Origin: Pseudoxanthomonas broegbernensis
Lineage (GTDB): Bacteria; Pseudomonadota; Gammaproteobacteria; Xanthomonadales; Xanthomonadaceae
Direction of reading: 5' to 3'
NCBI RefSeq assembly: GCF_014202435.1
Contig: NZ_JACHGU010000001.1
Span: forward strand, 372,001-436,000
DNA: 64,000 nucleotides
Position 1 is the first letter of the stretch. Every line of letters starts with the position of its first letter. The translations under genes were made by a program, and so were the position numbers. Of the stretch, positions 49,829 to 64,000 are shown one piece after another. Under the pieces are notes generated by a model. The model did not search any database. It saw only the letters and a list, made by a program, of their open reading frames with translations, and was not told the DNA's origin.

Positions 49829-51325
49829 CTAGGCCGCCGTGCCCGCCGCGGCTTCGTCCCCGCGCATGGCCACCCGGCCGCGCAGGGAGTTGGCCAGCGC
49901 CTCGGTGATGACGACATCGGCGAACTGTCCGACCAGGCGCCGCGGCCCGGGGAAGTTCACCGAGCGCATGTTCTCGGTCTTGCCGGTCAGCTCGTCGGGG
50001 TTCTTCTTCGAGGGGCCTTCCACCAGCACGGTCTGCACGCTGCCCACCATCGCCCGGGAGATGCGCGCGGCGTTGGCGTTGATCGCCGCCTGCAGCCGTT
50101 CCAGGCGGGCGTGCTTGACCGCATCCGGGGTGGTGTCTTCCAGGTCCGCGGCCGGGGTGCCGGGGCGGCGCGAGTAGATGAAGGAGAAGCTCTGGTCGAA
50201 GCCCACGTCCTCGATCAGCTTCATGGTCTTGTCGAAGTCGGCATCGGTCTCGCCGGGGAAGCCGACGATGAAGTCCGAGCTGACCGAGATGCCCGGCCGC
50301 ACCGCGCGCAGCTTGCGGATCTTCTGCTTGAACTCCAGCGCGGTGTAGCCGCGCTTCATCGCGCTCAGCACCCGGTCGCTGCCGGCCTGCACCGGCAGGT
50401 GCAGGTAGTCGGCCAGTTGCGGCACGTCGCGGTAGGCCTCCACCAGCGAGTCGGAGAACTCCAGCGGGTGCGAGGTGGTGAAGCGGATCCGGCCGACGCC
50501 CTCGATCTGGGCGATGGCGCGGATCAGCAGGCCCAGGTCCGCGGTCTCGCCGTCCTCGCCGTAGGGGCCACGGTAGGCGTTGACGTTCTGGCCCAGCAGG
50601 TTGATCTCGCGCACGCCCTGGGCGGCGAGCTGCGCCACCTCCACCAGCACGTCCTCGAACGGGCGGCTGACCTCGGTGCCGCGGGTGTAGGGCACCACGC
50701 AGAAGCTGCAGTACTTGGAGCAGCCCTCCATGATAGAGACGAACGCGCTCGGCCCTTCGGCGCGCGGCTCGGGCAGGCGGTCGAACTTCTCGATCTCCGG
50801 GAAGCTGATGTCCACCTGCGGCCGGTTCTGCTCGCGGCGGGCGCGGATCAGCTCGGGCAGGCGGTGCAGGGTCTGCGGGCCGAACACCAGGTCCACGTAG
50901 GGCGCGCGCTTGACGATGGCCTCGCCCTCCTGGGACGCCACGCAGCCGCCGACGCCGATGATGACCTCGCGGCCCTGGTCCTTGAGCCTGCTCTCCTTCA
51001 GCACGCGCCAGCGGCCGAGCTGGCTGAACACCTTCTCCTGCGCCTTCTCGCGGATCGAGCAGGTGTTGACCAGGACGACGTCGGCCTCTTCCGGGTCGTC
51101 GGTCAGTTCCAGCCCCTCGTGCTCGGCCAGCACGTCGGCCATCTTGGCCGAGTCGTACTCGTTCATCTGGCAGCCGTGGGTCTTGATGAACAGTTTCCCG
51201 CGCGCGCCGCCCGGGATGGCGCGCGGCGTGGCGCCCGGCAGCGGGACCAGGGCGGGGGCGGCGGAGGGAGCGGGCGCGATGGCGGCGTCCGGAGCGGCGT
51301 CCGGCGTGGCGTTCATCCCGGTCAT
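49829..51325 (-). CDS. miaB: tRNA-2-methylthio-N6-dimethylallyladenosine synthase MiaB
   Basis: 498 residues from the ATG at 51325. UPF0004 domain with three Cys ([30 protein letters not shown]), radical SAM domain with CSKYCSFC (CxxxCxxC), and a C-terminal TRAM domain ([15 protein letters not shown]...[11 protein letters not shown]). It adds the methylthio group to A37 of tRNAs. The N-terminal ~50 residues are an Ala/Pro-rich extension not needed by the family. A TACACT box lies upstream, and the gene leads the miaB-ybeZ-ybeY-corC unit, though 189 bases separate it from ybeZ. Confidence 0.97.
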
Positions 51326-51356
51326 GGCGGTCAATCCAGGCGGGCGGAAGGCGCAC

Positions 51357-51362
51357 AGTGTA
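51357..51362 (-). promoter_or_regulatory. -10 box candidate for miaB
   Basis: TACACT on the minus strand, 31 bases upstream of the ATG, in the context GCTACACTGTG. Confidence 0.4.
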
Positions 51363-51468
51363 GCGGCCGGCGCCCGCCATGGCGCGGCCCGGAGCGTCCG
51401 CGGCCGCGACTTTCCTCTTTGCGGACAACGGCTTGGCAAGCGCCCGGGAAGCTGGGAAACTCCGCGCC

Positions 51469-52367
51469 ATGAAGGGGATGCCGGGGATCCTGGGGCTTGT
51501 GCTGTTCGCGCTGGTGGCCGCGCCCGCCGGTGCCGGCACCCTGTATCGCTGCGTCGGCCCGGACGGCGCGACCAGCTACGTCAACACGCGGATTGCCGGC
51601 GCGCAGTGCGCGGTGTTCAGCCGCTACGTGCCGGATCGCTCGCCGGCCCGGCCGGCGCCTCCGCCTCCGCCGCCCCCGGCAGTGGCGTCTGTCGGTGGGG
51701 CCGATGCCGCGCCGGCAAGCCTGCGGGTCTCCCATGCGCCGCTGCCGCCCGGGCCGCACCGCAGCAACGCCGGCAGCGCGCCGCAGCGCCGGGTCGCCGG
51801 CCAGGTGTATTCCTACATGCAGGACGGCGTGCGCCACTTCAGCAGCCGCCCGCCGGCGCGCGGCGCCGCCGCCGAACAGGTGCGCACCATCGCCTACAGC
51901 TTCATCGAGACCTGCTACGCCTGCGCGCTGCAGCCGGGAGTGAGCTTCGCCACGGTGCGGCTGAACACCAACGCCTACCAGGGGGAGATCGCCGCCGCCG
52001 CCCGCGAGTTCGGGGTCGATGAGGCGATCGTGCGCGCGGTCATCCATGCCGAGTCGGCGTTCAACCCCACCGCGCTGTCCCGGGTGGGCGCGCAGGGGCT
52101 GATGCAGTTGATGCCGGCCACCGCGCGCCGGTTCGGGGTGGCCGACAGCTACGACGCCGGGCAGAACATCCGCGGCGGCGTGCAGTACCTGGCCTGGCTG
52201 CTGAAGCGCTTCAACGGCGACCTGACCCTGGCCGCGCCGGCTACAACGCCGGCGAGGGCGCGGTCGACCGCTACAAGGGCGTGCCGCCCTACAGCGAGAC
52301 CCAGCGCTACGTGCAGCGCGTGGCCATGCTGGCCGAGCGCTACCGCGGGGTGCAGGCCGCGCGTTGA
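51469..52367 (+). pseudogene. Lytic transglycosylase with frameshift (SLT domain, DUF4124)
   Basis: A signal peptide ([15 protein letters not shown]) and a DUF4124-like start ([15 protein letters not shown]) lead to a Pro-rich linker and an SLT domain. The catalytic Glu is in AVIHAESAFNP and QGLMQLMPATARRFG follows. After codon gcg at 52234-52236 the frame breaks. Adding one base restores AGYNAGEGAV, then RYKGVPPYSETQRYV, up to the TGA at 52365-52367, giving 299 residues. As read, the frame instead runs to 52575 with unrelated residues, overlapping petA. The GYNAG motif is needed for activity, so the read product would be defective. A base-calling error is as likely as a real mutation. Confidence 0.85.
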
Positions 52368-52445
52368 GGCCGGGAAACGTCGCCGCGGCGACGCATGGGG
52401 GGTGCGCAAAACGGGGCGCACCGGGGCGGGCGGCGGCGTCCGCCA

Positions 52446-52475
52446 TTGTCGGCCCGTTAAGCGTTCCGTTACACT
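52446..52475 (+). promoter_or_regulatory. Promoter of petABC
   Basis: TTGTCG (52446-52451), an 18-base spacer and TACACT (52470-52475). The leader of about 85 bases holds a 6-base hairpin (52496-52501 with 52508-52513). Confidence 0.5.
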
Positions 52476-52564
52476 TCGTTGTCTTTTGCGGCCGGCCTGC
52501 CTCTCCTGGCAGGTTCGGGTCGCAGGCAGCCAACGCTACCAGCAGAAGATTTTCGGAGTGCCGG

Positions 52565-53191
52565 ATGGCCAATGATGAGGTCCAAGCGCCCGTGAACACG
52601 GGTCGACGCCGATTCCTGACTGCGACCACCGCCGTGGTCGGGGCGGTCGGTGCCGGGTTCGCAGCAGTTCCCTTCATCAAGTCCTGGAATCCCAGCGCGC
52701 GGGCCAAGCTCGCCGGCGCTCCGGTGACCGCGGACATCAGCGCGTTGCAGGAAGGCCAGCGCCTGATCCTGGAATGGCGCGGCCAGCCGATCTGGATCGT
52801 CAAGCGTTCCAAGGCCGTGCTCGACGCGCTGCCCACCCTGGACGGCCACCTGCGCGACCCCAAGTCGGAGAACGCCGACCAGCAGCCGGAGTACGTGCGC
52901 CAGGCCAACCCGGAGCTGCGCTCGCTCAAGCCGGAGATCTCGGTGCTGGTGGGCCTGTGCACCCACCTGGGCTGCTCGCCGGAGATGGCCGCCGAGATCA
53001 AGCCCGAGCCGTACGATCCGGACTGGAAGGGCGGTTATTTCTGCCCCTGCCACAAGTCCCGCTTCGACATGGCCGGGCGCGTGTTCCAGGGCGTGCCGGC
53101 GCCGACCAACCTGGTCGTGCCGCCGCACCACTACGTCGACGACGGCACCATCGTCATCGGCGTCGATCCCTCCAACGGCACGGGGGCGTAA
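52565..53191 (+). CDS. petA: Ubiquinol-cytochrome c reductase Rieske iron-sulfur subunit
   Basis: 208 residues. A twin-arginine-like N-terminus (GRRRFLTATTAVVGAVG) doubles as the membrane anchor. The 2Fe-2S site is complete: C132-T-H134-L-G-C137 and C160-P-C162-H163, with C137 and C162 the expected disulfide. It passes electrons from ubiquinol to cytochrome c1 in complex III at the inner membrane. First gene of petABC, 3 bases before petB. Confidence 0.98.
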   Translation: MANDEVQAPVNTGRRRFLTATTAVVGAVGAGFAAVPFIKSWNPSARAKLAGAPVTADISALQEGQRLILEWRGQPIWIVKRSKAVLDALPTLDGHLRDPKSENADQQPEYVRQANPELRSLKPEISVLVGLCTHLGCSPEMAAEIKPEPYDPDWKGGYFCPCHKSRFDMAGRVFQGVPAPTNLVVPPHHYVDDGTIVIGVDPSNGTGA

Positions 53192-53194
53192 GCC

Positions 53195-54454
53195 ATGGCG
53201 AACATCTTCACCCGCACCGCCACCGGCGCGATGGACTGGGTCAACGCCCGCGCCCCGGCGCTGGCGCCGATGTACCGGAAGCACATGTCCGAGTACTACG
53301 CGCCGAAGAACTTCAACATCTGGTACATCTTCGGCGTGCTGTCGATGGTGGTGCTGGTCAACCAGATCGTCACCGGCATCTTCCTGACGATGCACTTCAA
53401 GGCCAGCGCGGCGGAAGCCTTCGCCTCGGTCGAGTACATCATGCGCGACGTGGAGTGGGGCTGGCTGATCCGCTACATGCACAGCACCGGCGCCTCGCTG
53501 TTCTTCATCGTCGTCTACCTGCACATGTTCCGCGGGCTGATGTACGGCTCCTACCAGAAGCCGCGCGAGCTGGTGTGGATACTGGGCATGCTGATCTACC
53601 TGGTGCTGATGGCCGAGGCCTTCATGGGCTACGTGCTGCCGTGGGGCCAGATGTCGTTCTGGGGCGCGAAGGTGATCATCTCGCTGTTCGGCGCCATCCC
53701 GGTGATCGGCAACGGCCTGACCGAGTGGATCATGGGCGACTACCTGCCCTCCGACGCCACCCTCAACCGCTTCTTCGCCCTGCACGTCATCGCCCTGCCG
53801 CTGGTGCTTTTGCTGCTGGTGGTGCTGCACCTGGGCGCGCTGCACGAGGTCGGCTCGAACAATCCGGACGGCGTGGAGATCAAGAAGGGCCCGAAGGGCA
53901 ACCGCTGGTCCCCCACCGCCCCGGCCGACGGCGTGCCGTTCCACCCGTACTACACGGTGAAGGACACCTTCTACGTGTTCGCGATGCTGGTCATCGCCGC
54001 CTTCATCATCTTCTTCGCCCCGGCGTTCGGCGGCTGGTTCCTCGAACACGACAACTTCACCGAGGCCAACAGGCTGGTCACCCCCGAGCACATCAAGCCG
54101 GTGTGGTACTACACCCCGTACTACGCGATGCTGCGCGTGGTCCCGCACAAGCTCAGCGGCGTACTGGTGATGTTCGGCGCGATCGCCATCCTGTTCGCGC
54201 TGCCGTGGCTGGACCGGGCCAAGGTCAAGTCCTACCGCTACCGCGGCCTGCTGTCCAAGGTGCTGCTGGGCCTGTTCGCTCTGAGCTTCGTGTGGCTGGG
54301 CAAGATCGGCGCCGGCCCGGGCACCGACCCGGTGGAGACCATCGTCGGCCGCTTCCTGACCGCGTATTACTTCCTTTTCTTCCTGACCATGCCGCTGTGG
54401 ACCAAGCTGGACCAGACCAAGCCGGTGCCGGAACGGGTGACGACGCATGACTAA
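53195..54454 (+). CDS. petB: Cytochrome b subunit of the bc1 complex
   Basis: 419 residues, about 8 membrane helices. The heme ligands lie in helices B and D: HSTGASLFFIVVYLHMFRG and HVIALPLVLLLLVVLHLGALHE. The Qo-site PEW-equivalent region is replaced by the proteobacterial KPVWYYTPYYAMLR. It hosts quinol oxidation and reduction. The stop overlaps petC by 8 bases. Confidence 0.98.
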   Translation: MANIFTRTATGAMDWVNARAPALAPMYRKHMSEYYAPKNFNIWYIFGVLSMVVLVNQIVTGIFLTMHFKASAAEAFASVEYIMRDVEWGWLIRYMHSTGASLFFIVVYLHMFRGLMYGSYQKPRELVWILGMLIYLVLMAEAFMGYVLPWGQMSFWGAKVIISLFGAIPVIGNGLTEWIMGDYLPSDATLNRFFALHVIALPLVLLLLVVLHLGALHEVGSNNPDGVEIKKGPKGNRWSPTAPADGVPFHPYYTVKDTFYVFAMLVIAAFIIFFAPAFGGWFLEHDNFTEANRLVTPEHIKPVWYYTPYYAMLRVVPHKLSGVLVMFGAIAILFALPWLDRAKVKSYRYRGLLSKVLLGLFALSFVWLGKIGAGPGTDPVETIVGRFLTAYYFLFFLTMPLWTKLDQTKPVPERVTTHD

Positions 54455-55190
54455 GAAGTGGATTGCCCTGCTAGCCGCAGCCGCCACCGGGCTCCTGTTC
54501 TCCGCCACCGCGCTGGCCGCGGCCGGCGGCCCGGTCCAGCAGGCCGACAACGACCTGTCCGACCGCGCCTCCCTGCAGCGCGGCGCGCAGTTGTACATGA
54601 ACCACTGCTCCGGCTGCCATTCGCTGAAGTACCTGCGCTATTCGCGCATGGCCGAGGACCTGGGCCTGACCGAGGACGAGGTGATGAACCACCTCAACTT
54701 CACCGGCGCCAAGTACGGCGAACAGATCCACGTGGCCATGACCCAGGCCCAGGGCGACAAGTGGTTCGGCAAGATGCCGCCCGACCTGAGCGTCATCTCC
54801 CGCGTGCGCGGCAGCGACTGGATCTACACCTACCTCAAGTCCTTCTACCTGGACGAGTCGCGCCCGCTGGGCTGGAACAACAAGCTGTTCCCCAACGTGT
54901 CCATGCCCAACCCGATGTGGGAGCTGCAGGGCCTGCAGCACGCCGAGTTCGGCGAGCCCGACGCGGTCGGCGAGCGCCACCCGGAGCGGCTGGTGGTCAC
55001 CACGCCGGGGCACCTGTCGGCGGCCGAGTTCGACCGGGCCGCGCGCGACGTCACCAATTTCCTCGAATACGCCGGCGAACCGGCCGCGCTCAAGCGGCAG
55101 GCCATCGGTGTGTGGGTGATCCTGTTCCTGGTCGCACTGACCTTCCTGGCCTACCTGCTCAAGCAGGAATACTGGCGGGACGTGCACTGA
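54447..55190 (+). CDS. petC: Cytochrome c1
   Basis: 247 residues. Signal peptide (WIALLAAAATGLLFSATALA), covalent heme motif C54-S-G-C57-H58, and a C-terminal membrane anchor (VWVILFLVALTFLAYLL) ending in basic/aromatic KQEYWRDVH. The axial Met probably lies in the MPNPMWELQG region. It receives electrons from the Rieske protein. Last gene of petABC. Confidence 0.97.
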   Translation: MTKKWIALLAAAATGLLFSATALAAAGGPVQQADNDLSDRASLQRGAQLYMNHCSGCHSLKYLRYSRMAEDLGLTEDEVMNHLNFTGAKYGEQIHVAMTQAQGDKWFGKMPPDLSVISRVRGSDWIYTYLKSFYLDESRPLGWNNKLFPNVSMPNPMWELQGLQHAEFGEPDAVGERHPERLVVTTPGHLSAAEFDRAARDVTNFLEYAGEPAALKRQAIGVWVILFLVALTFLAYLLKQEYWRDVH

Positions 55191-55355
55191 AGTGCTGCGA
55201 TGCGGCGTGCCCGTCCGGCCGGCGTGCCGGCCCCGGGCGGCCCCCGCCCTTGCGCTTTTCCGCCGGGGGATAGCACACTCGGGGACTGTGACGACCGTCG
55301 GCGAGGGGCTGGCGGCAGCGGTACGGCCGGCGGATTCCGGCCGTCGGAGGCCTAG

Positions 55356-55991
55356 ATGGCAGCGAGCGTGCGCATGCGCAATACCCTGACGTTGTTCTCC
55401 TCCGTCGATGACGTTCTTTGTCATCGCGTGCGGCTGGTCCTGGCGGCCAAGGGCGTGACCTACGACCTGGTGCCGGTCGACGCGCAGAACCCGCCCGAGG
55501 ACCTGATCCACCTCAACCCGTACCACTCGGTGCCGACCCTGGTCGAGCGCGAACTGGTGCTGTACGCGGCGTCGGTGGTGAGCGAATACCTGGACGAGCG
55601 CTATCCGCACCCGCCGCTGATGCCGGTGGACCCGCTGTCGCGGGCGCGCCTGCGCCTGGCGATGCTGCGCATCGAGCACGACTGGGTGCCGCAGGTGCAG
55701 GCCATCCAACTGGGCAACAAGCAGCAGGCCGAGGCCGGTCGCAAGCGCCTGAAGGAACTGCTGACCGAGTCGCTGCCGCTGTTCAAGGCCAGCAAGTTCT
55801 TCCTCAACCCCGAGATGAGCCTGGCCGACTGCGCGATGGCGCCGATCGTCTGGCGCCTGCAGGCGCTGGACGTGCCGCTGCCCAAGGACGGCAAGGCCAT
55901 CGAGGACTACGGCAACCGCATCTTCCGCAATCCCGGTTTCCTGCGCAGCCTGACCGACCAGGAAAGGAAATTGCGCGACATGCCGGCATGA
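55356..55991 (+). CDS. sspA: Stringent starvation protein A
   Basis: 211 residues; GGAGG (55346-55350) fixes the first ATG. GST-like fold: thioredoxin-like N-domain (LTLFSSVDDVLCHRVRLVLAAKG, NPYHSVPTLVERELVLYAASVVSEYLDE-type region) and an all-helix C-domain with the ADCAMAPIVWRL signature. The catalytic Ser/Cys of true GSTs is missing. SspA binds RNA polymerase and affects stress and stationary-phase transcription. It follows petC, a conserved neighbour order, and precedes sspB. Confidence 0.93.
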   Translation: MAASVRMRNTLTLFSSVDDVLCHRVRLVLAAKGVTYDLVPVDAQNPPEDLIHLNPYHSVPTLVERELVLYAASVVSEYLDERYPHPPLMPVDPLSRARLRLAMLRIEHDWVPQVQAIQLGNKQQAEAGRKRLKELLTESLPLFKASKFFLNPEMSLADCAMAPIVWRLQALDVPLPKDGKAIEDYGNRIFRNPGFLRSLTDQERKLRDMPA

Positions 55992-56025
55992 CCGGACGGC
56001 GATGCGCGCGCCCGGCCCGGCGGCG

Positions 56026-56031
56026 TAAACT
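56026..56031 (+). promoter_or_regulatory. -10-like box immediately before sspB
   Basis: TAAACT ends 6 bases before the sspB ATG, so transcription from it would start at the start codon and make a leaderless message. Confidence 0.3.
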
Positions 56032-56037
56032 GCGGGC

Positions 56038-56478
56038 ATGAGCGATGACGCCGCGAGCATGACCAGTTATCGCCCGTACCTGCTGCGGGCCTTGACCGAG
56101 TGGATCAACGACAACGGCATGACCCCGCACATCCTCGTCGATGCGGGCGTATCCGGCGTGCAGGTGCCGCCGGGCGCGGTGCGCGACGGGCGGGTGGTGC
56201 TGAACATCGCCGACCGTGCCGTGGTCGGCCTGCACATCGACAACGAATGGGTCGGCTTCACCGCCCGCTTCGGCGGGGTCAGCCAGGCGGTGAACGTGCC
56301 GGTGGGCGCGGTGCTGGCGGTGTACGCGCGCGAGACCGGGCAGGGCATGGTGCTGCCGGAGGAAAGCAGCGCCTCGCCGCCGGGCGATGGACCGGGCGAT
56401 GGCCCGGGGCCGCATGCGCCGCCGCCGGCCGATCCGCCCACGCCCGGCAAGCGCCCGCACCTGCGCGTGGTGAAGTAG
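56038..56478 (+). CDS. sspB: ClpXP protease specificity-enhancing factor SspB
   Basis: 146 residues. The folded domain (YRPYLLRALTEWINDNGMTPHI, VVLNIADRAVVGL, FTARFGG) binds ssrA-tagged peptides. A disordered Pro/Gly/Ala linker leads to the C-terminal RPHLRVVK, the short tail that docks on ClpX. It delivers tagged substrates to ClpXP. Follows sspA by 46 bases. Confidence 0.95.
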   Translation: MSDDAASMTSYRPYLLRALTEWINDNGMTPHILVDAGVSGVQVPPGAVRDGRVVLNIADRAVVGLHIDNEWVGFTARFGGVSQAVNVPVGAVLAVYARETGQGMVLPEESSASPPGDGPGDGPGPHAPPPADPPTPGKRPHLRVVK

Positions 56479-56565
56479 CCGCGCAGCGGGCGCCGTTGCC
56501 GGCCGTCGGTGCCGGCGAAGATCGTCCGAGGGTGGCTTGTCCGGCGCCGAGGCGCCGGGCGGCAT

Positions 56566-56901
56566 TCAATCGCGCCGTTCCAGCGGGATGATCCGCGCGC
56601 CCGCGGAAGGGCCGGTAAAGGACACCAGCCGCCCGGCCCTGAGCACCAGGCGCCCGCTGTGGCGGTCGGCGCCATCGTAGGAATAGTCGAAGCGGAAGCT
56701 GCGCTCCAGGCCGAGCCAGCCGTCCTGGCGCCGGTACACCCGCACCCCGTTGGCATGCACGCTCTGGTCCAGCCACTGCACCCCGGCGGCGGCGCAGGCG
56801 TCGCGGCCCAGCGCCTCGGCGCGCTCGGCCGCCGCGCGCGCGGCGTTCCAGAATGCCGCCGCGGCGGCACCGGCGATCATCAGCAGGATCAGGCTAGGCA
56901 T
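56566..56901 (-). CDS. DUF3301 domain protein
   Basis: 111 residues. An N-terminal membrane helix (PSLILLMIAGAAAAAFW) is followed by the DUF3301 core: RAAAERAEALGRDACAAAG-type helix, VQWLDQSV, and RRQDGWLGLERSFRFDYSYDG. This small gammaproteobacterial family has no known function. Convergent with sspB and divergent from the transporter operon. Confidence 0.85.
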   Translation of the reverse strand: MPSLILLMIAGAAAAAFWNAARAAAERAEALGRDACAAAGVQWLDQSVHANGVRVYRRQDGWLGLERSFRFDYSYDGADRHSGRLVLRAGRLVSFTGPSAGARIIPLERRD

Positions 56902-56948
56902 GGCGCCATGGTGCCGTAGCCCGAGCGGGCGGTAAATGCGGCCATGAG

Positions 56949-56962
56949 TTGACCTAGGTCAT
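56949..56962. promoter_or_regulatory. CRP/FNR-type binding-site candidate
   Basis: TTGAC-CTAG-GTCAT contains the perfect 12-base palindrome TGACCTAGGTCA (56950-56961). It matches the TTGAC-N4-GTCAA layout of DNR/NnrR/FNR-type sites except for the last base. It lies 27 bases before the ATG of the transporter-globin operon, so it may also act as a repressor site. The first TTGACC also resembles a -35 box. Confidence 0.45.
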
Positions 56963-56988
56963 TGGTCGCGGGCGTGCCAGGGGCGAGC

Positions 56989-58032
56989 ATGCCAACCATG
57001 AGAATGATTCTTATTGGTGGTCTTGCCCGTTCCGGCCTGCGGACGGCGCGCTGGGCGTTGCTGCTGGCCCTGGCGGCCTGTGCCGGCGAGCCGGACGCCC
57101 CCTCCCCGGTTGCTGAGCCCGCCGCCGTGCCGGTGCGGCTGGCCGGTCCCTCGGCGGTGGTGAGCTTCCCGCTGATGCACATGGCGCTTACCGGCATCGA
57201 CGTGCACGGCCGGCGCCCCCGGCCCGCGCGGTTCCGGCTATGGCAGAACCCGGACCAGTTGCGGGTGCTGCTGGCCCGCGGCGAACTGGACTACAGCGCG
57301 GTCCCGGCCAACCTGCCGGCGCTGATGGCCAACCGCGGCGAGCCGGTGCGGCTGTTGAACGTGTCGGTGTGGGGCCTGCTGTGGCTGGTCAGCCGCGATC
57401 CGGACGTGGCCGGGTTCGACGACCTGCGCGGGCGGACGCTGCTGACGCCGTTCCGCCGCGACATGGGGGCCATCGCCCTGCACGAGCTGCTCAAGGCGCG
57501 CGGCATCGAGGCCGGTGCCGGCATCCAGTTGCGCCAGGCCCGCGACGGCCTGGACGCGGTGGCGCTGATGCTGGCCGGCCAGGGCGAGCATGCGCTGCTG
57601 CCGGAGCCGACCGCCTCGCTGCTGCTGTGGCGCAACCGCGACGAGGGCGGGGCGCCGCTGTACCGCGCGCAGAGCCTGGAGCAGGCGTGGGCGCAGGCTT
57701 TCCCCGCGCGGCCGGAACTTCCGCAGGCCGGGGTGATGGCCGCCGCGGGCACGGATGGCGATCCGGCGCTGGACCGCGCCGTCGCCGCCGCCTACGCGCG
57801 CTCGGCGCGGTGGTGCAAGGCCGATCCGCCCGCCTGCGCGGCCCTGGCCCACCGGTACCTGCCGCACATGCCGGTACCGGCACTGGAGGAGTCGATCCGG
57901 GTCACGCGCCTGGACGGGCTGGACGCGGCCGCGGTGCGGCCACAGCTCGATGCGCTGTACCGGTTGATCCTCGACAGCCAGCCCGAGGCCGTCGGCGGCC
58001 GTCTGCCGGATGCCGGGTTCTACGGCCCATGA
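56989..58032 (+). CDS. ABC transporter substrate-binding lipoprotein (NitT/TauT type)
   Basis: 347 residues from the ATG at 56989, favoured by AGGGG (56979-56983). The leader ends in a lipobox LALAAC with C31 as the lipid site, so it is tethered to a membrane facing the periplasm. The body resembles NMT1/SsuA/TauA-type binding proteins: SAVVSFPLMHMAL, LDYSAVPANLPALMANRG, LLTPFRRDMGAIALHELLKARG and the GEHALLPEPTASLLLW region. The ligand is unknown. It heads a seven-gene overlapping set; the permease starts in its stop codon. Its first codons (AGA, ATT, CTT, ATT, GGT) are unusually A/T-rich for this genome. Confidence 0.82.
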   Translation: MPTMRMILIGGLARSGLRTARWALLLALAACAGEPDAPSPVAEPAAVPVRLAGPSAVVSFPLMHMALTGIDVHGRRPRPARFRLWQNPDQLRVLLARGELDYSAVPANLPALMANRGEPVRLLNVSVWGLLWLVSRDPDVAGFDDLRGRTLLTPFRRDMGAIALHELLKARGIEAGAGIQLRQARDGLDAVALMLAGQGEHALLPEPTASLLLWRNRDEGGAPLYRAQSLEQAWAQAFPARPELPQAGVMAAAGTDGDPALDRAVAAAYARSARWCKADPPACAALAHRYLPHMPVPALEESIRVTRLDGLDAAAVRPQLDALYRLILDSQPEAVGGRLPDAGFYGP

Positions 58033-58844
58033 ACGTCCACAGGCCAGCGACGAGCGCGACGCCGGTGCTGTGGTCGGCCCTGGGCCTGCTGGCGTTGCTG
58101 GCGGCCTGGCACCTGGCCGCGCTGCGGCTGGGGCCGCTGCTGATGGCCACGCCGGCGCAGACGGTGCAGGCGCTGGCAGCGCTGCTCGCCGGGGAAGGCT
58201 TTCGCCACCACGCCGCGGTCAGCCTGCTGCGGGTGGTGGCCGGGGTCGGGCTGGCCATCGTCATCGGCCTGGTGCTGGGCCTGCTGGCCGGCCGCCATGC
58301 GCGCCTGCGCGCGCTGCTGGAACCGCTGCGCTGGGTGCTGATGGCGGTGCCGGGCGTGATCGTGGTGGTGCTGGCGATGCTGTGGTTCGGCCTGGGCACG
58401 GCGATGGTGGTGTTCATGACCGTGGCGCTGGTGGCGCCGGGGGTGTACGTGAACACGCTCAAGGGCCTGCTGCTGGTGGACCCGGCGCTGGTGGAGATGG
58501 CCCGGGTCTACCGCTTCGGGCGCCTGCGCCGGCTGCGCCACGTGGTGTTGCCCGCGTTGACCGCGCCCTTGTGCGCGGCCCTGTTGATCGCCACGTGCAG
58601 CGGCGTGCGGCTGGTGGTGATGGCCGAGGTGCTGGGCGCGGTGGACGGCGCCGGCTACGCCCTGGCCAACGCCCGCGGCACCTTCGACAGTGCCGGACTC
58701 TACGCCTGGGCCGTGCTGGTGCTGGGCCTGGTGGCGGTGCTGGAACTGGGGCTGCTGCAACCGCTGCAGCGGCACCTGACGCGCTGGCGGCAGGACGCCG
58801 CACCGGCGCTGGCCGCACTCGCGCGAGGACGCGCCGATGCTTGA
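58029..58844 (+). CDS. ABC transporter permease (NitT/TauT type)
   Basis: 271 residues with six membrane helices. The binding-protein-dependent transport domain shows the EMARVYRFGRLRRLRHVVLPALTAPL coupling-helix region (EAA-type loop, family EAA---G motif). The N-terminal AALRLGPLLMATPAQTVQALAAL and LLRVVAGVGLAIVIGLVLGL are typical of SsuC/TauC permeases. It overlaps the binding protein by 4 bases and the ATPase by 8. Confidence 0.92.
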   Translation: MNVHRPATSATPVLWSALGLLALLAAWHLAALRLGPLLMATPAQTVQALAALLAGEGFRHHAAVSLLRVVAGVGLAIVIGLVLGLLAGRHARLRALLEPLRWVLMAVPGVIVVVLAMLWFGLGTAMVVFMTVALVAPGVYVNTLKGLLLVDPALVEMARVYRFGRLRRLRHVVLPALTAPLCAALLIATCSGVRLVVMAEVLGAVDGAGYALANARGTFDSAGLYAWAVLVLGLVAVLELGLLQPLQRHLTRWRQDAAPALAALARGRADA

Positions 58845-59583
58845 ACTGGACGGCATCGCGCTGGACCTGGGCGGCCGCCGCGTGCTTGCCGGTTTCGCCC
58901 TGCGCCTGGCGCGCGGCGAGCGGCTGGGGCTGGTCGGTCCCAGCGGCGCGGGCAAGAGCAGCGTGCTCAAGCTCGCCGCCGGCCTGCTGGTCCCTGGCGC
59001 CGGCAGGGTCCGCAATGGCTTCGCCCGCCCCTGCCTGGTGTTCCAGGAGCCGCGGCTGCTGCCGTGGCGCAGCGTGCGCGAGAACCTGGTCATTCCCCTG
59101 CGCGCGGCCGGGCGCACCCGGGACGACGCGCGCTCCGTCGCCGAAACCTGGCTGGCCCGGGTCGGCCAGGCGGGCGAGGCGGGCGCCTGGCCGCGCCAGT
59201 TGTCCGGTGGCATGGCCCAGCGCGTGGCCCTGGCACGGGCATTCGCGCTGGAGCCGGACCTGCTGCTGCTGGACGAGCCCTTCGGCGCGCTGGATCCCGA
59301 GCTGCGCCGCACCCTGGGCGCGCTGTGCGACGCGGAACTGGCGCGCACCGGCGCGGCGCTGGTGTGCGTGAGCCACCACCCGCAGGAACTGGGCGAGCGG
59401 GTCGACCGCTGCATCCGCCTGGAAGGCGGCCGCGCCTGGCCGCATGCCCTGCCCGGGCACGCACCTCGCGCGCCCGGCCGCGCGCCAGCCCTCCCTGGAC
59501 ATCCTTCTTCCGCGCCGGCCCATGCCCGCGCGCCCGGACTTCTCCCGCCAGCCGCGTCCCCGACGCAAGCGAGCCCGCCATGA
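58837..59583 (+). CDS. ABC transporter ATPase (NitT/TauT type)
   Basis: 248 residues. Walker [11 protein letters not shown]-loop VFQEPRLLPW, signature LSGGMAQRVALARA, Walker B LLLLDEPFGALD and H-loop SHHPQE are all intact. The last ~45 residues are a Pro/Ala-rich tail. Powers the permease encoded upstream; related to SsuB/TauB. The stop overlaps the next ATG (ATGA). Confidence 0.95.
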   Translation: MLELDGIALDLGGRRVLAGFALRLARGERLGLVGPSGAGKSSVLKLAAGLLVPGAGRVRNGFARPCLVFQEPRLLPWRSVRENLVIPLRAAGRTRDDARSVAETWLARVGQAGEAGAWPRQLSGGMAQRVALARAFALEPDLLLLDEPFGALDPELRRTLGALCDAELARTGAALVCVSHHPQELGERVDRCIRLEGGRAWPHALPGHAPRAPGRAPALPGHPSSAPAHARAPGLLPPAASPTQASPP

Positions 59584-60023
59584 GCCACTACGCCGTGTTG
59601 TTGATCCTGCACCTGTTCGCCGCGCTGATGTTCGTCGGTACGGTGTTCTTCGAGGTGTTGATCCTGGAAAGCGTGCGCAGGCACGTGCCGCGCAACGTGA
59701 TGCTGCAGATGGAGACCGGCATCGGCAATCGCGCGCGGCAACTGATGCCGTGGGTGCTGGCGGTGCTGTACGGCAGCGGCATGGGCATGGCCTGGCGCTA
59801 CCGCACGCTGCTGGCGCACCCGCTGGAGAGCAGCTTCGGCCTGCTGCTGACGATCAAGATCGTGCTGGCGCTGAGCGTGTTCGGCCACTTCCTCTACGCG
59901 ATGTCGCTGCGCCGCCGGCGCCGGCTGGCATCGACCGCATTCAAGCGCATCCACCTGAGCGTGTTCTGCCACATGGTCGGCATCGTGTTGCTGGCCAAGC
60001 TCATGTTCCACCTGGGGTGGTGA
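59580..60023 (+). CDS. Four-helix CopD-like membrane protein
   Basis: 147 residues with four predicted helices (about 4-27, 54-72, 85-108, 125-144). His residues lie at or near helix ends: H3, H11, H35, H80, H103, H125, H131, H144. The pattern resembles CopD/HemJ-like bundles, which bind copper or heme, and similar proteins are annotated as CopD family. Whether it binds metal or heme is inference. Its position inside a receptor/transporter/globin operon suggests it handles the imported cargo or its redox state. Confidence 0.7.
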   Translation: MSHYAVLLILHLFAALMFVGTVFFEVLILESVRRHVPRNVMLQMETGIGNRARQLMPWVLAVLYGSGMGMAWRYRTLLAHPLESSFGLLLTIKIVLALSVFGHFLYAMSLRRRRRLASTAFKRIHLSVFCHMVGIVLLAKLMFHLGW

Positions 60024-60055
60024 GCGCTTCCGCTTCCTTCGCCGAGAACCTCCAC

Positions 60056-62182
60056 ATGACCTCCCCCCGCCCCCATCTTTCACTGCTCGTCCCGGCCATC
60101 GCCGTTGCGCTGGCCTGCGTGCCGGCTTCGGCCTTCGCGGCCGACGCCCGCGAGCCGGTCGACCTGGACCGCATCGACGTGCTCGGCCGCAGCGGCGATA
60201 CCCCGGTCGCGCCGACCGTGGCCGACGAGCGCGAGCGCCTGGCCCGCGTGCCCGGCGGCACCAACCTGGTCGACCTGCGCAACGCCGGCCGCCAGGCCAC
60301 CCTGCGCGATGCCCTGGAGCACCAGCCCGGCATCGTCCTGCAGGAGTTCTTCGGCGGCATCGACCAGCCGCGCCTGAACATCCGCGGCTCCGGCATCCAG
60401 AGCAATCCGGTCAACCGGGGCGTGCTGCTGCTGCAGGACGGGCTGCCGCTGAACGAGGCCGACGGCTCGTTCGTGATCGGCCTGCTGGAACAGCGCAACG
60501 CCGCCTTCATCAGCGCCCGCCGCGGCGCCAACGCGCTCAGCCCCGGCGCCACTGCCCTGGGCGGCGAGATCGACTTCTACAGCCTCAACGGCGCCGACGA
60601 GCGCGGCCGCCTGCGCCTGGAGGGCGGCAGCGACGGCCGCCGCGGCGGACAACTGGCCTGGGGCGTTTCCGGCCCGCGCGCCGACGGCTGGATCGGCGCC
60701 AGCCACGATGCGTACGACGGCTACCGGCGCCACGCCGACGGCGAGCGCGATTCGGTCCACGTCAACACCGGCTGGCGCGCGGGCGAGACCTTCAGCAACC
60801 GCACCTGGCTGTCGTGGACCGACCTGTTCTTCCACATCCCCAACGTGGTGCCCAAGGCGCGCATCCACAGCGACCCGCGCGGGGTGATGGGCGACGGCGA
60901 CACGCCGCAGGACAATCTGTTGAACGTCTATCGCCGCGACCCGCTGCGCGACACCCGGCACTGGCGCGTGGCCAACGCCTCGCAATGGGGCGGCGAGCGG
61001 CTGCGGCAGTCGCTGGGCCTGTGGTGGCAGCACACCGACGACCTGTTCAAGAACCCGACCACCCACAACGTCAGCGACACCGATACCTGGGGCGCGCAGT
61101 ACCAGGCGGCCGGCGAGCGCGGCGACCTGGACTACCGGCTCGGCGGCGCCTACACCGCCGGCGACACCGCGCGCGACTTCTACGCCAACAGTCCGGCCGA
61201 CGGCACCCGGCTGCAGCGCTTCGGCCACTACGGCCTGGACGCGGCCAGCCTGGACCTGCAGGCCGCGCTGGGCTGGCGCACCGGCGAGCACTGGCGCCTG
61301 CTGGCCGAGGCCAAGTGGAGCCGGGTCGAGCGCGATGCCGCCGACCTGGCCCGCGGCGGCGGCCTGGAGCAGCGCTACGCCCATGCCAGCCCGCGGGTGG
61401 GGGCGATCTGGCAGCCGCGCCCGGGCCTGCGCCTGTTCGCCAACCTCAGCCGCAGCAACGAGGTGCCGACCTGGTGGGAGATCGTCAGCGCCGAGGTGCC
61501 GCCGGCCAGCCCGGCCGGCGCGCAGGCGCAACTGCTGCGCCTGCGCGTGCAGGCCGCCGACACCCTCGAGATCGGCGGCAGCGGCCGCTTCGGCGGCGCC
61601 GAGCGCGGCGCGGACTGGTCGCTGGCGGTGTACCGCAGCGCGGTCGACGACGAGCTGATGTCGATGGTGGACGCGTTCGGCAACCGCGTGGGCACCTACA
61701 ACTACACCGCCGGTACCACCCACCAGGGGGTCGAGGCCGGCCTGGACGGCCGCTTCCCCGCCGTCGGCGGCGGCGTGCTGGAATACCGGCTGGCCTGGAC
61801 CTGGAGCGACTTCACCTTCGACGACGGCCAGTTCGCCGGCAACCGCATCGCCGGCGTACCCAGGCACCTGGTCAGCGCCGAGCTGGCATGGCGCAGCGGC
61901 GGCTGGCGCATCGGTCCCAACGTGCGCTGGCTGCCCGGCGACACCCCGACCGACCACGCCAACACCCGCGACATCTACCAGGACGGCTACGCGCTGCTCG
62001 GCGCCAGGCTCGACTACACCGCCGCCGATGGACGCTGGACGGTGTTCGTGCATGCCGACAACCTCACCGACCGCCGCTACGCCAGCAGCTACGTGATCCG
62101 CAACCAGGGCACGCTGGCGCAGCCCGGTTTCCTGCAGGGCGTGGGCCGCAACGCTACGCTCGGCCTGACCTGGAGGTTCTGA
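60056..62182 (+). CDS. TonB-dependent outer-membrane receptor
   Basis: 708 residues. Signal peptide (LVPAIAVALACVPASAFA), a TonB-box-like LDRIDVLG just after the leader, a plug domain (LRDALEHQPGIVLQEFFGGIDQPRLNIRGSG) and a 22-strand barrel ending in TLGLTWRF with the C-terminal Phe of outer-membrane proteins. RYASSYVIRNQG near the end is the usual receptor C-terminal region. It imports an unknown ligand with proton-motive force via TonB. A GTG at 60020 could extend the N-terminus. Confidence 0.94.
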   Translation: MTSPRPHLSLLVPAIAVALACVPASAFAADAREPVDLDRIDVLGRSGDTPVAPTVADERERLARVPGGTNLVDLRNAGRQATLRDALEHQPGIVLQEFFGGIDQPRLNIRGSGIQSNPVNRGVLLLQDGLPLNEADGSFVIGLLEQRNAAFISARRGANALSPGATALGGEIDFYSLNGADERGRLRLEGGSDGRRGGQLAWGVSGPRADGWIGASHDAYDGYRRHADGERDSVHVNTGWRAGETFSNRTWLSWTDLFFHIPNVVPKARIHSDPRGVMGDGDTPQDNLLNVYRRDPLRDTRHWRVANASQWGGERLRQSLGLWWQHTDDLFKNPTTHNVSDTDTWGAQYQAAGERGDLDYRLGGAYTAGDTARDFYANSPADGTRLQRFGHYGLDAASLDLQAALGWRTGEHWRLLAEAKWSRVERDAADLARGGGLEQRYAHASPRVGAIWQPRPGLRLFANLSRSNEVPTWWEIVSAEVPPASPAGAQAQLLRLRVQAADTLEIGGSGRFGGAERGADWSLAVYRSAVDDELMSMVDAFGNRVGTYNYTAGTTHQGVEAGLDGRFPAVGGGVLEYRLAWTWSDFTFDDGQFAGNRIAGVPRHLVSAELAWRSGGWRIGPNVRWLPGDTPTDHANTRDIYQDGYALLGARLDYTAADGRWTVFVHADNLTDRRYASSYVIRNQGTLAQPGFLQGVGRNATLGLTWRF

Positions 62183-62184
62183 CC

Positions 62185-62625
62185 ATGCACGCCCCTTCGC
62201 CATCCCCCGATCCCGGTGCCTGCTGCAGCGAGGAGGACGTGGTCGCCCTGGTGCACCGCTTCTACGCGCGGGTGCGCCTGGACCCCGACCTGGGCCCGGT
62301 GTTCGAGCGCCACGTCGCGGACTGGCCGGCGCACCTGGCGCACCTGGTGGATTTCTGGTCGGCGTTGCTGCGCGGCACCCGCCGCTTCAGCGGTGCGCCG
62401 ATGCCCCGGCACATGGCGCTGCCGGGGCTGAACGCCGCGCTGTTCCGGCGCTGGCTGGAGCTGTTCGCGCAGACCACCGCCGAGCTGGGCAATCCGGCGA
62501 TGCAGTCCGAGGCCGATACCCGCGCGCGGATGATCGCCGAGCGCTTCTGGCAGCAGTACCAGGTCGCCGGCCACGACGTCCTTCACCATTGCCCCGTTTC
62601 ATCGCCCACCGGAGAGACGCCATGA
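62185..62625 (+). CDS. Group III truncated hemoglobin
   Basis: 146 residues; GGAGG (62172-62176) lies 8 bases before the ATG. The trHb group III pattern is present: Y27 as the B10 Tyr in HRFYARVRLDPDLGPVFE, a distal His (H50 or H53), the proximal His H76 in PMPRHMALP, and W90 as G8 Trp in FRRWLELFAQT. Such globins (Campylobacter Ctb) bind O2 and NO tightly and are linked to nitrosative or microaerobic stress. An Asp/Pro N-terminal extension and a Ser/Pro tail flank the core. It overlaps the cupin gene (ATGA). Confidence 0.9.
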   Translation: MHAPSPSPDPGACCSEEDVVALVHRFYARVRLDPDLGPVFERHVADWPAHLAHLVDFWSALLRGTRRFSGAPMPRHMALPGLNAALFRRWLELFAQTTAELGNPAMQSEADTRARMIAERFWQQYQVAGHDVLHHCPVSSPTGETP

Positions 62626-63047
62626 ACCGCATCCGCTTCCCCGCGATCCTGCCGCTGGCGCTGCTGGCCGCCCTGGCCGCCACCGCCACCAGCACCGCCA
62701 CCGCGCTGGACGCCGGGGCGGACGCGCCCGTGCCGCCGCGGTTGTCCACGCTGGCCGGTGCGCCCGACCCGGCCACCGCTCAGGCGCGCACCACCACCCA
62801 GGTGGGCCGCTACGGCCAGGCCCGGGTGATGCAGTTGCAACTCAAGGCGGGCACGCGGATGCCGGCCCATGCCGCGCCGGAGCGGGTGCTGGTGGTGGTG
62901 CTCGCCGGCCAGGGACGCTTCGAGTTCGACGATGGCCCGGTGCCGGTGCGCGCGCGCCAGGTGCTGCACCTGGCGCCGGGCGAGAACCACGGCGTGAGCG
63001 CGGACACCGACCTGGACCTGCTGCTGGTGCGCATGGCCGAGCACTAG
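62622..63047 (+). CDS. Secreted small cupin protein
   Basis: 141 residues with a signal peptide ([20 protein letters not shown]). One cupin barrel with His83 (MPAHAAPE), Glu87 and His123 (GENHGV) as possible metal ligands. It should act in the periplasm. Last gene of the transporter-globin operon, whose role is unknown. A GC-rich imperfect hairpin lies downstream (about 63101-63129). Confidence 0.8.
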   Translation: MNRIRFPAILPLALLAALAATATSTATALDAGADAPVPPRLSTLAGAPDPATAQARTTTQVGRYGQARVMQLQLKAGTRMPAHAAPERVLVVVLAGQGRFEFDDGPVPVRARQVLHLAPGENHGVSADTDLDLLLVRMAEH

Positions 63048-63214
63048 GAGGCACGGCCGCCTGCCCCGACGATCGCGGGACCGGGCATCCTGCCCGCCCG
63101 CCCGCCTCCGCACCGCGGGATGCGGGCGGTATCGCGCCCGTCCGCCTTGCGCCATCGTGGGTCGCCCGTGAAGCGGCGACGCGGCGCACGCGGAATCCGC
63201 CGCCATAGCCCGGA

Positions 63215-64000
63215 TCAGATCGGTGCCGGCCCCAGCTTCATCGACAGGTCGATGGCGCGCACGTGCTTGGTCAGGCCGCCGATGGAGATGCAATCCACGC
63301 CGTCCTGCGCGATCGCGCGCAGGCCGTCCAGGCCGACCCCGCCGGAGACCTCCAGCGGGATGCGCCCGTCGAACGGCGCCGTACGGGCGATGCGCACCGC
63401 CTCGCGGCGCATGTCCGCGGTGAAGTCGTCGATCAGCACGCGGTCGCAGCCAGCGGCCAGCGCCTCGCGCAACTGTTCCAGCGTCTCCACTTCCACGATC
63501 AGCGGCAGGGCCGGCTGTGCCTGGCGCGCCCGCGCGATCGCCGCGCCCACGGAGCCGGCGACGCGGACGTGGTTCTCCTTCAGCATCACCGCGTCGTACA
63601 GGCCGATGCGGTGGTTCGCCCCGCCGCCGGCGCGCACCGCGTACTTCTGCGCCTGGCGCAGGCCCGGCAGGGTCTTGCGCGTGTCCAGGATGGCCGTGCC
63701 GGTGCCGCGCACGGCATCGACGTGGGCGGCGGTGGTGGTGGCCGTGCCGCACAGCGTCTGCATGAAGTTCAAGGCGGTGCGCTCGGCGCTGACCAGCGTG
63801 CGGCTGCGGCCTTCCAGCAGCGCCAGCACGGTGCCGGCGGCCACGCGCTGGCCTTCGGCGACGCGCCAGTCGATCCGCACCTGCGGGTCCAGCGCGCGGT
63901 GGCAGGCGTCGAACCACGGGCGCCCGGCGATCACCGCGTCTTCCTTGCACAGCAGGTAGGCGCGTTCGGGCACGTCGGGCAGCAAGGCAGCGGTGACGTC
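63215..64000 (-). CDS. nadC: Nicotinate-nucleotide pyrophosphorylase (quinolinate phosphoribosyltransferase), 3' part
   Basis: The frame is open to the window edge, with 261 residues visible of about 290. The visible end of the window reads DVTAALLPD, the start-region signature GD-x-T-A-L-L-P. TALNFMQTLCGTATTT, ILDTRKTLPGLRQAQKYAVRAGGG, HRIGLYDAVMLKENH and LEVSGGVGLDGLRAIAQDGVDCISIGGLTKH are all typical. It makes nicotinate mononucleotide from quinolinate and phosphoribosyl pyrophosphate. The TTG at 63985 is not the true start. Confidence 0.97.
   Translation of the reverse strand, partial: DVTAALLPDVPERAYLLCKEDAVIAGRPWFDACHRALDPQVRIDWRVAEGQRVAAGTVLALLEGRSRTLVSAERTALNFMQTLCGTATTTAAHVDAVRGTGTAILDTRKTLPGLRQAQKYAVRAGGGANHRIGLYDAVMLKENHVRVAGSVGAAIARARQAQPALPLIVEVETLEQLREALAAGCDRVLIDDFTADMRREAVRIARTAPFDGRIPLEVSGGVGLDGLRAIAQDGVDCISIGGLTKHVRAIDLSMKLGPAPI

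Follow-up and report, generated by a model that had tools for sequence, protein, structure and literature searches.

A seven-gene operon of Pseudoxanthomonas broegbernensis (assembly GCF_014202435.1), located in a 64,000-nt stretch of contig NZ_JACHGU010000001.1 (hereafter the window, to which all positions refer), encodes a TonB-dependent receptor, a binding-protein-dependent ATP-binding cassette (ABC) importer, a four-helix membrane protein, a truncated globin, and a cupin. We consider it somewhat probable that this operon is a mobile cassette with which denitrifiers take up an iron chelate, that a Dnr/Fnr-type regulator activates it and Fur represses it, and that the attached heme proteins handle nitric oxide (NO). 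This interpretation is based on the observed gene set, its conservation, two sequence sites with a near-fixed spacing at the promoter, and a link to nitrite reductase; iron would be the cargo, with copper, a tetrapyrrole, and an organic cofactor as its rivals. The operon is real and is not unique to this host. Its genes and the two predicted regulatory sites are as follows:

56949..56962, plus strand: predicted Dnr/Fnr-type site TTGACCTAGGTCAT, the sole exact match to TTGAYNNNNGTCAW in the window
56999..57013, plus strand: predicted Fur box TGAGAATGATTCTTA, a 13/14 match to TGAKAATNATTMTCA and the sole exact match to TGAKAATNATTMTYA in the window
56989..58032, plus strand: substrate-binding lipoprotein (lipobox LALAAC by eye), with the real start probably at ATG 56998
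58029..58844, plus strand: ABC permease of the NitT/TauT type (BPD_transp_1, 3.5e-19)
58837..59583, plus strand: ABC ATPase (ABC_tran, 4.5e-25)
59580..60023, plus strand: CopD/HemJ-like four-helix membrane protein, with invariant H11, K93, and H125
60056..62182, plus strand: TonB-dependent receptor (TonB_dep_Rec_b-barrel, 4.4e-33) with the plug stretch FFGGxDQPR
62185..62625, plus strand: truncated globin (Bac_globin, 1.2e-6) with conserved Tyr27, His76, and Trp90
62622..63047, plus strand: cupin (Cupin_2, 5.6e-7) with a signal peptide by eye

An earlier reading made from the letters of the window (the sequence-only reading) had placed seven plus-strand genes at 56989–63047 in one operon, and the sequence and its open reading frames agree with this layout, apart from the first start codon: the binding-protein starts of relatives align with ATG 56998 and not with 56989. 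ATGA overlaps join the binding-protein and permease genes (58029), the ATPase and CopD-like genes (59580), and the globin and cupin genes (62622). The permease and ATPase genes overlap by 8 base pairs (bp; 58837–58844), a 32-bp gap (60024–60055) precedes the receptor gene, and 2 bp separate the receptor and globin genes. Together, the TonB receptor and the ABC importer with its binding protein make up the cross-envelope uptake route that had been proposed.

A scan of species genomes with two short peptide patterns and a three-member alignment gave 34 loci; because of these patterns, the loci lean to close relatives, and the prevalence counts carry that bias. Within 6.5 kb of the binding-protein gene, the permease was found at 33 loci, the ATPase at 32, the CopD-like gene at 25, the TonB receptor at 28, the globin at 17, and NnrS at 5, and 29 loci carried a divergent, possibly Dnr-like Crp/Fnr-family regulator (two of these regulators match FtrB, FixK, Fnr, and others, all below the cut-off). 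Five loci are short downstream (L023, L048, L050, L052, and L054), and the receptor occurs at 27 of the 29 that have at least 5.2 kb there. The five-gene core, consisting of the binding protein, permease, ATPase, CopD-like protein, and TonB receptor, is present at 24 of the 34 loci and follows the order of the window at 23 of these (the receptor and CopD-like genes are swapped in L044), which argues that the operon arrangement is more than chance. The proposal that the genes form one unit is supported.

The set of seven is not fixed. Its order recurs in L072 (same genus) and in L022 (Luteimonas, where the receptor reads in two frames), and the expected co-occurrence was borne out for the receptor and not for the globin, which half of the loci carry. 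In 16 of the 17 loci with a globin, it takes the form of a fusion to the cupin-like DUF1971 on the divergent strand, as it also does at the plasmid locus L017, the one in which the fusion domains were checked against Pfam; the carriers are mostly Betaproteobacteria. A search of the open-access literature for DUF1971 with hemoglobin yielded no paper. L024 and L025 have neither receptor nor CopD-like gene. A globin-like open reading frame of L018 was judged to be an antisense artefact and was excluded from the globin counts, which reduced them from 22 to 21 rows. Seven loci (L032, L035, L036, L039, L055, L028, and L045) carry two CopD-like copies each, and in L028, L045, and L055 the second copy lies beyond the regulator. 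In a class sample of 229 genomes, 7 had the CopD-like gene alone, one of them as a weak match.

The predicted promoter pair is the strongest evidence for a Dnr/Fnr-activated, Fur-repressed iron-chelate cassette. A TTGAY-N4-RTCAW-type site, which is a feature of Dnr/Fnr regulons, is present at the operon promoter; exact matches to TTGAYNNNNGTCAW are expected 0.09 times in the window, and at least one occurred in 8 of 100 shuffles. A Dnr/Fnr-type site lies at the equivalent position in relatives, and the form TTGA[CT]-N4-GTCAT is found upstream of the binding-protein gene at most loci as well as in the window. Fur-type boxes with at most one mismatch occur at only two places in the whole host genome, one being the operon and the other lying between TonB-receptor-like and PepSY-type genes (named by eye), and the reversed-pattern control gave 0. 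The centre of the Fur box is 50.5 bp downstream of the Dnr/Fnr centre in the window, and in 18 of 37 scanned regions the two centres are 49.5 or 50.5 bp apart. When a pair was defined as a Dnr/Fnr-type match of 10/10 and a Fur match of at least 11/14 at an offset of 36–62 bp, 22 pairs were found in 583 kb: 20 at binding-protein promoters (20 of the 34 relatives) and 2 elsewhere, namely one in L033, at the promoter of globin-DUF1971, and one in L047, at a different gene. The window contains one such pair, at this operon. Fur box and start codon overlap in Xanthomonadales and most Pseudomonas, whereas in most Betaproteobacteria the box is located upstream of the start codon, at approximately the same distance from the Dnr/Fnr-type site. 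Because the pair spacing holds while the start-codon distance varies, coding constraint does not explain the Fur box. The usual activator position is −41.5, and with the activator there, Fur would cover about +9. The predicted pair would call for expression at low oxygen or with NO present, provided that iron is short, and we infer that both sites work. The globin-DUF1971 genes have a predicted Dnr/Fnr-type site of their own (at least 9/10) in 15 of 17 cases, counted without a shuffle control, and a Fur box, among these 17, in L033 only. No Crp/Fnr gene was found at positions 50001–64000 of the window. The sequence-only reading had missed the predicted regulatory sites for iron and for low oxygen or NO, the divergent Crp/Fnr regulator of the relatives, and the exchange with NnrS described below.

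The cassette is also linked to NO-forming nitrite reduction. NirK scored over the cut-off in 22 of the 34 cassette genomes, and 9 of the remaining 12 gave a strong cytochrome cd1 match (best E <1e-60), a family that also covers NirN and NirF; neither was found in three Campylobacterota metagenome-assembled genomes (L052, L053, and L054). The resulting 31 of 34 compares with 55 of 229 genomes in a class sample that includes the host (NirK in 14 and strong cd1 in 42, one having both), giving a Fisher odds ratio of 33 and a p value of 3e-14 that is only indicative because of the relatedness among the cassette genomes. The link to NO or oxygen that had been suggested from the globin is supported.

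Several observations suggest that the cassette is most likely laterally mobile. A strong binding-protein match was confined, among 198 genomes of the family, to the host and one genome of the same genus (three others were weak and partial). Six genes flanking the operon in the window had no match in the available stretches of L072, L022, and L023. The relatives range from Xanthomonadales to Campylobacterota and occur on plasmids of many genera. On a Pseudomonas nitroreducens plasmid (L016), only a 126-base match remains of the ATPase, with no receptor or CopD-like match after it, which is apparently a decayed copy of the cassette; the annotated relaxase at L016:16638-18641 begins with this ATPase-matching stretch. 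In the window, the upstream flank consists of a minus-strand gene followed by sspB, sspA, and petABC, and nadC lies downstream (names by eye from translations). A tRNA scan of the 64 kb found none.

NnrS, a heme-copper protein, takes the place of the CopD-like protein in several Alphaproteobacteria and Campylobacterota. It lies beside homologous ABC genes in Paracoccus, Azospirillum, Nitratiruptor, Agrobacterium, Martelella, Chelatococcus, Bartonella, and Cereibacter, and both proteins are present in Aliarcobacter and L054. The Agrobacterium copy adjoins nap, the Martelella copy has pseudoazurin alongside, and the Cereibacter copy adjoins hutW, hutX, and a heme-type ABC importer; iron or heme genes are near the cassette in Nitratiruptor, Cereibacter, and Bartonella. 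In genome G224, a CopD-like gene without the transporter stands beside a globin, NnrS, and an Rrf2 regulator. Four Rrf2 neighbours score below both the RirA and NsrR cut-offs. Neisseria has the binding protein, permease, ATPase, and NnrS, with no receptor match nearby; one sequence in the collection, NZ_CP119142.1 (L098; 17 annotated features), is listed as a gonococcal plasmid, yet at 2.17 Mb it is chromosome-sized. A single stretch of Diaphorobacter HDW4A contains a regulator, a receptor of the same family (59%), the binding protein, a cupin, two more receptors, CobN, ExbB, the permease, the ATPase, and NnrS, together with the promoter pair; the CobN embedded in this plasmid (L096 / L097) has an apparent signal peptide. 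A Providencia plasmid encodes a receptor of the same family (39%), a regulator, a cupin, a methyltransferase, and an importer annotated as iron type (both in its permease and overall) whose binding protein is Peripla_BP_2; the pair is found at both promoters, with Fur box shuffle frequencies of 0.064 and 0.008. In another context, at L057:5081-11618 (G149), a CopD-like gene is flanked by a 1200-aa TonB receptor, whose plug and barrel matches are approximately 590 residues apart, and by a histidine kinase that matches PilJ weakly (below the cut-off).

The binding protein alone had no Pfam match; among 41 aligned members, VitK2_biosynth was matched by 20, Phosphonate-bd by 18, and NMT1 by 15, and Peripla_BP_2 was not among the matched families. 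The family profile matches the solved protein 3hn0 at 1.9e-22, and the AlphaFold model (mean predicted confidence, pLDDT, 90.2) has alternating alpha/beta structure. The best NCBIfam matches of the permease, SaoP/SsuC/TauC, are all below the cut-off, and the importer resembles NitT/TauT systems in its permease, ATPase, and binding protein at the family level, with no equivalog cut-off reached. The four-helix protein had been tied to copper or heme and is better described as CopD/HemJ-like: its CopD (PF05425) score of 22.5 bits is below the gathering cut-off of 32.1, CopD is matched at E ≤0.01 by 18 of the 41 family members, and His11, Gly67, Lys93, and His125 are present in all 41. Its AlphaFold model (pLDDT 87.6) has four long helices, and the Aliarcobacter member matches UPF0093, which we take to be HemJ, at 8.9e-4; by analogy with HemJ, the CopD-like protein may bind heme. 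The receptor family (24 members, including two from Alphaproteobacteria) has an invariant plug stretch around FFGGxDQPR. The globin matches PF01152 with a score of 29.2 against a cut-off of 21 (the fused globin of L017, at 19, is below it), and its Tyr27, His76, and Trp90 are kept in at least 95% of 21 globins. The globin and the CopD-like protein may act on NO, and the cupin, given its signal peptide, is probably periplasmic.

Among known systems, Fur-regulated siderophore uptake of the FecA-FecBCDE type is alike in its TonB receptor, binding protein, permease, ATPase, and Fur box (predicted here). Such systems have a Peripla_BP_2 binding protein and a FecCD permease, whereas the operon has neither (its permease is BPD_transp_1, of the NitT/TauT type) and adds a Dnr/Fnr-type site and NO-linked heme proteins. 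The receptor of closest solved structure, PqqU/YncD, matches the family profile at 7.1e-50, yet the window receptor scores 76.5 bits against the cut-off of 1200 in the PqqU model NF041535; PqqU is not known to have a dedicated ABC importer. The copper receptor OprC/NosA (TIGR01778), encoded in the same host, is likewise a TonB receptor with an Fnr-type site beside nirK; it belongs to a different receptor family, and TIGR01778 was not matched by the window receptor up to E 0.1. Iron uptake genes have been reported to go down in anoxia, according to the available parts of two studies: tonB, exbBD, and hmuUV in Magnetospirillum (PMC9549626) and fbpA, hemO, and exbBD in the gonococcus (PMC3032703), the latter text, as far as available, containing neither “nnrs” nor a description of the cassette's transporter. 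The Dnr/NnrR/NsrR regulon of nnrS, globins, and denitrification genes has the same kind of activator site as the operon, and the regulon account lists NnrS and a single-domain hemoglobin, with no occurrence of “TonB” or “ABC transport” in its available text (Rodionov 2005, PMC1274295). No published system with exactly this gene set was found, in line with the sequence-only reading, and the cassette was not described in the open-access literature searched, a coverage that leaves out most subscription papers and preprints.

In the host genome (3.47 Mb in 32 contigs), Dnr/Fnr-type matches were found at 13 places, of which the operon and six others (on C5 and C11) were inspected. One lies between nirK and the divergent TIGR01778 copper receptor (754 bits), where the Fnr-type site TTGACCCAGGTCAA is at C11:18584, within C11:17454-20900 (locus L089). 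Of the other five, one precedes ubiD, one is between nirB and hemN, one is located downstream of fnr, one is beside nrdD, and one lies approximately 140 bases before an NnrS match. The genes around these sites were called crudely by composition, and 2 of the 10 scanned proteins had no match. No nosZ over the cut-off was found in the host. In L089, ubiD and ubiU for anaerobic ubiquinone come beyond the nirK and receptor genes.

In the mechanism that we propose, a Dnr/Fnr-type activator would turn the operon on at low oxygen or in the presence of NO, and Fur would turn it off in the presence of ample iron. A scarce chelate, probably iron-bearing, would enter the cell through the TonB receptor and the ABC importer with its binding protein, and the membrane protein of heme type (CopD/HemJ-like in this operon and NnrS in others) and the globin would deal with NO, thereby keeping the arriving iron, or the importer, from NO poisoning. 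NnrS has been described as protecting the iron pool against conversion to dinitrosyl-iron (Stern et al. 2013, as cited in the available part of PMC11526790). Given the promoter pair, the receptor, the importer, and the NO-linked proteins, iron-chelate uptake during denitrification is the simplest account.

Several observations weigh against this account. The ABC importer is of the NitT/TauT type and not the usual siderophore type, and the nearest solved receptor is PqqU, which carries something other than an iron chelate. Neither the class of the importer nor the closest receptor structure points to one cargo, which keeps our confidence moderate. Fourteen of the 34 promoters lack the pair as defined above (eight from Pseudomonas, which are degenerate, L041, and five from Campylobacterota), and it was found in only 3 of 11 further plasmid regions and not in those of Alphaproteobacteria, Neisseria, and Paraclostridium. 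Half of the loci have no globin, including the eight Pseudomonas, L034, and L047. The Gram-positive Paraclostridium, which has no outer membrane, carries the ABC part along with cupins, hcp, and hemerythrins. In the host genome, the Dnr/Fnr-type pattern gave 15 matches against 9 for the reversed control, so this pattern alone is weak evidence. On the Paraclostridium bifermentans plasmid (L101), a Crp/Fnr regulator lies upstream of the ABC part, two cupins come after it, and hcp, hemerythrin, and NifU genes are in the surroundings.

NitT/TauT importers usually carry organic cofactors or precursors, and the cargo may instead be such a compound (a thiamine pyrimidine, PQQ-like, or menaquinone-type molecule) whose synthesis NO inhibits. 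The weak NMT1/THI5 and VitK2_biosynth matches in relatives, PqqU as the nearest solved receptor, and the retention of the ABC part in a Gram-positive relative fit this proposal; the predicted Fur box does not, the receptor is far below the PqqU cut-off, and no Rfam family reached the gathering score in the window, indicating no known riboswitch. We consider an organic cofactor rather unlikely. Uptake of heme or a porphyrin, which would supply iron or heme under anoxia with the CopD/HemJ-like protein and the globin as heme proteins, seems unlikely: the binding protein and permease are not of a known heme-importer type, and the window receptor scores 55 and 47.8 bits with the TonB heme models, far below cut-offs of about 320, even though TonB-hemin is matched by 16 and TonB-hemlactrns by all 24 of the receptor family. 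The heme genes beside the Cereibacter copy, the CobN (over the NCBIfam cut-off) and ExbB within the Diaphorobacter copy, and the UPF0093 match of the Aliarcobacter CopD-like member speak for it.

If the receptor and importer brought in a copper chelate for NirK and other copper enzymes, the CopD-like protein would pass the copper on. This would accord with the CopD resemblance, the pseudoazurin beside the Martelella copy, the strong nirK link, and the description of NnrS as a cuproprotein in the available part of PMC6769254. The separate copper receptor divergent to nirK in the host and the Fur-type box at the promoter make copper less likely, and the operon receptor has no TIGR01778 match, no Cys or Met other than the start Met reaches 60% conservation in its 24-member family, and the host lacks nosZ over the cut-off; we regard this explanation as unlikely. 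There is a slim chance that the system takes up NO-bearing iron, that is, an iron-nitrosyl complex or a siderophore carrying or releasing NO (e.g., a diazeniumdiolate siderophore), in which case the exported cupin, the CopD-like protein or NnrS, and the globin would strip NO and the cell would gain iron during denitrification; NnrS and the CopD-like protein would then be the membrane partners of an importer. The N-oxide or aromatic substrate of the sequence-only reading, to be processed by the globin and cupin, is very improbable and is ranked last for lack of evidence. The presence of these two genes is its only support; the cupin appears by eye to be exported and the globin does not, nutrient supply under respiration accords better with the predicted Fur and Dnr/Fnr sites, and no catabolic gene is common to genera in the annotated plasmid neighbourhoods.

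Denitrifiers have a high demand for iron, yet the NO that they produce harms iron-sulfur proteins and sequesters iron, and ordinary siderophore or heme uptake genes are reported to be lowered in anoxia in the two organisms named above. An uptake system that is on when low oxygen or NO coincides with iron shortage, as proposed here for the iron-chelate cassette, would fill that gap, and NnrS and the CopD-like family would gain a concrete partner. Because the relatives extend from Xanthomonadales to Campylobacterota, the ligand of one binding protein would annotate many genomes.

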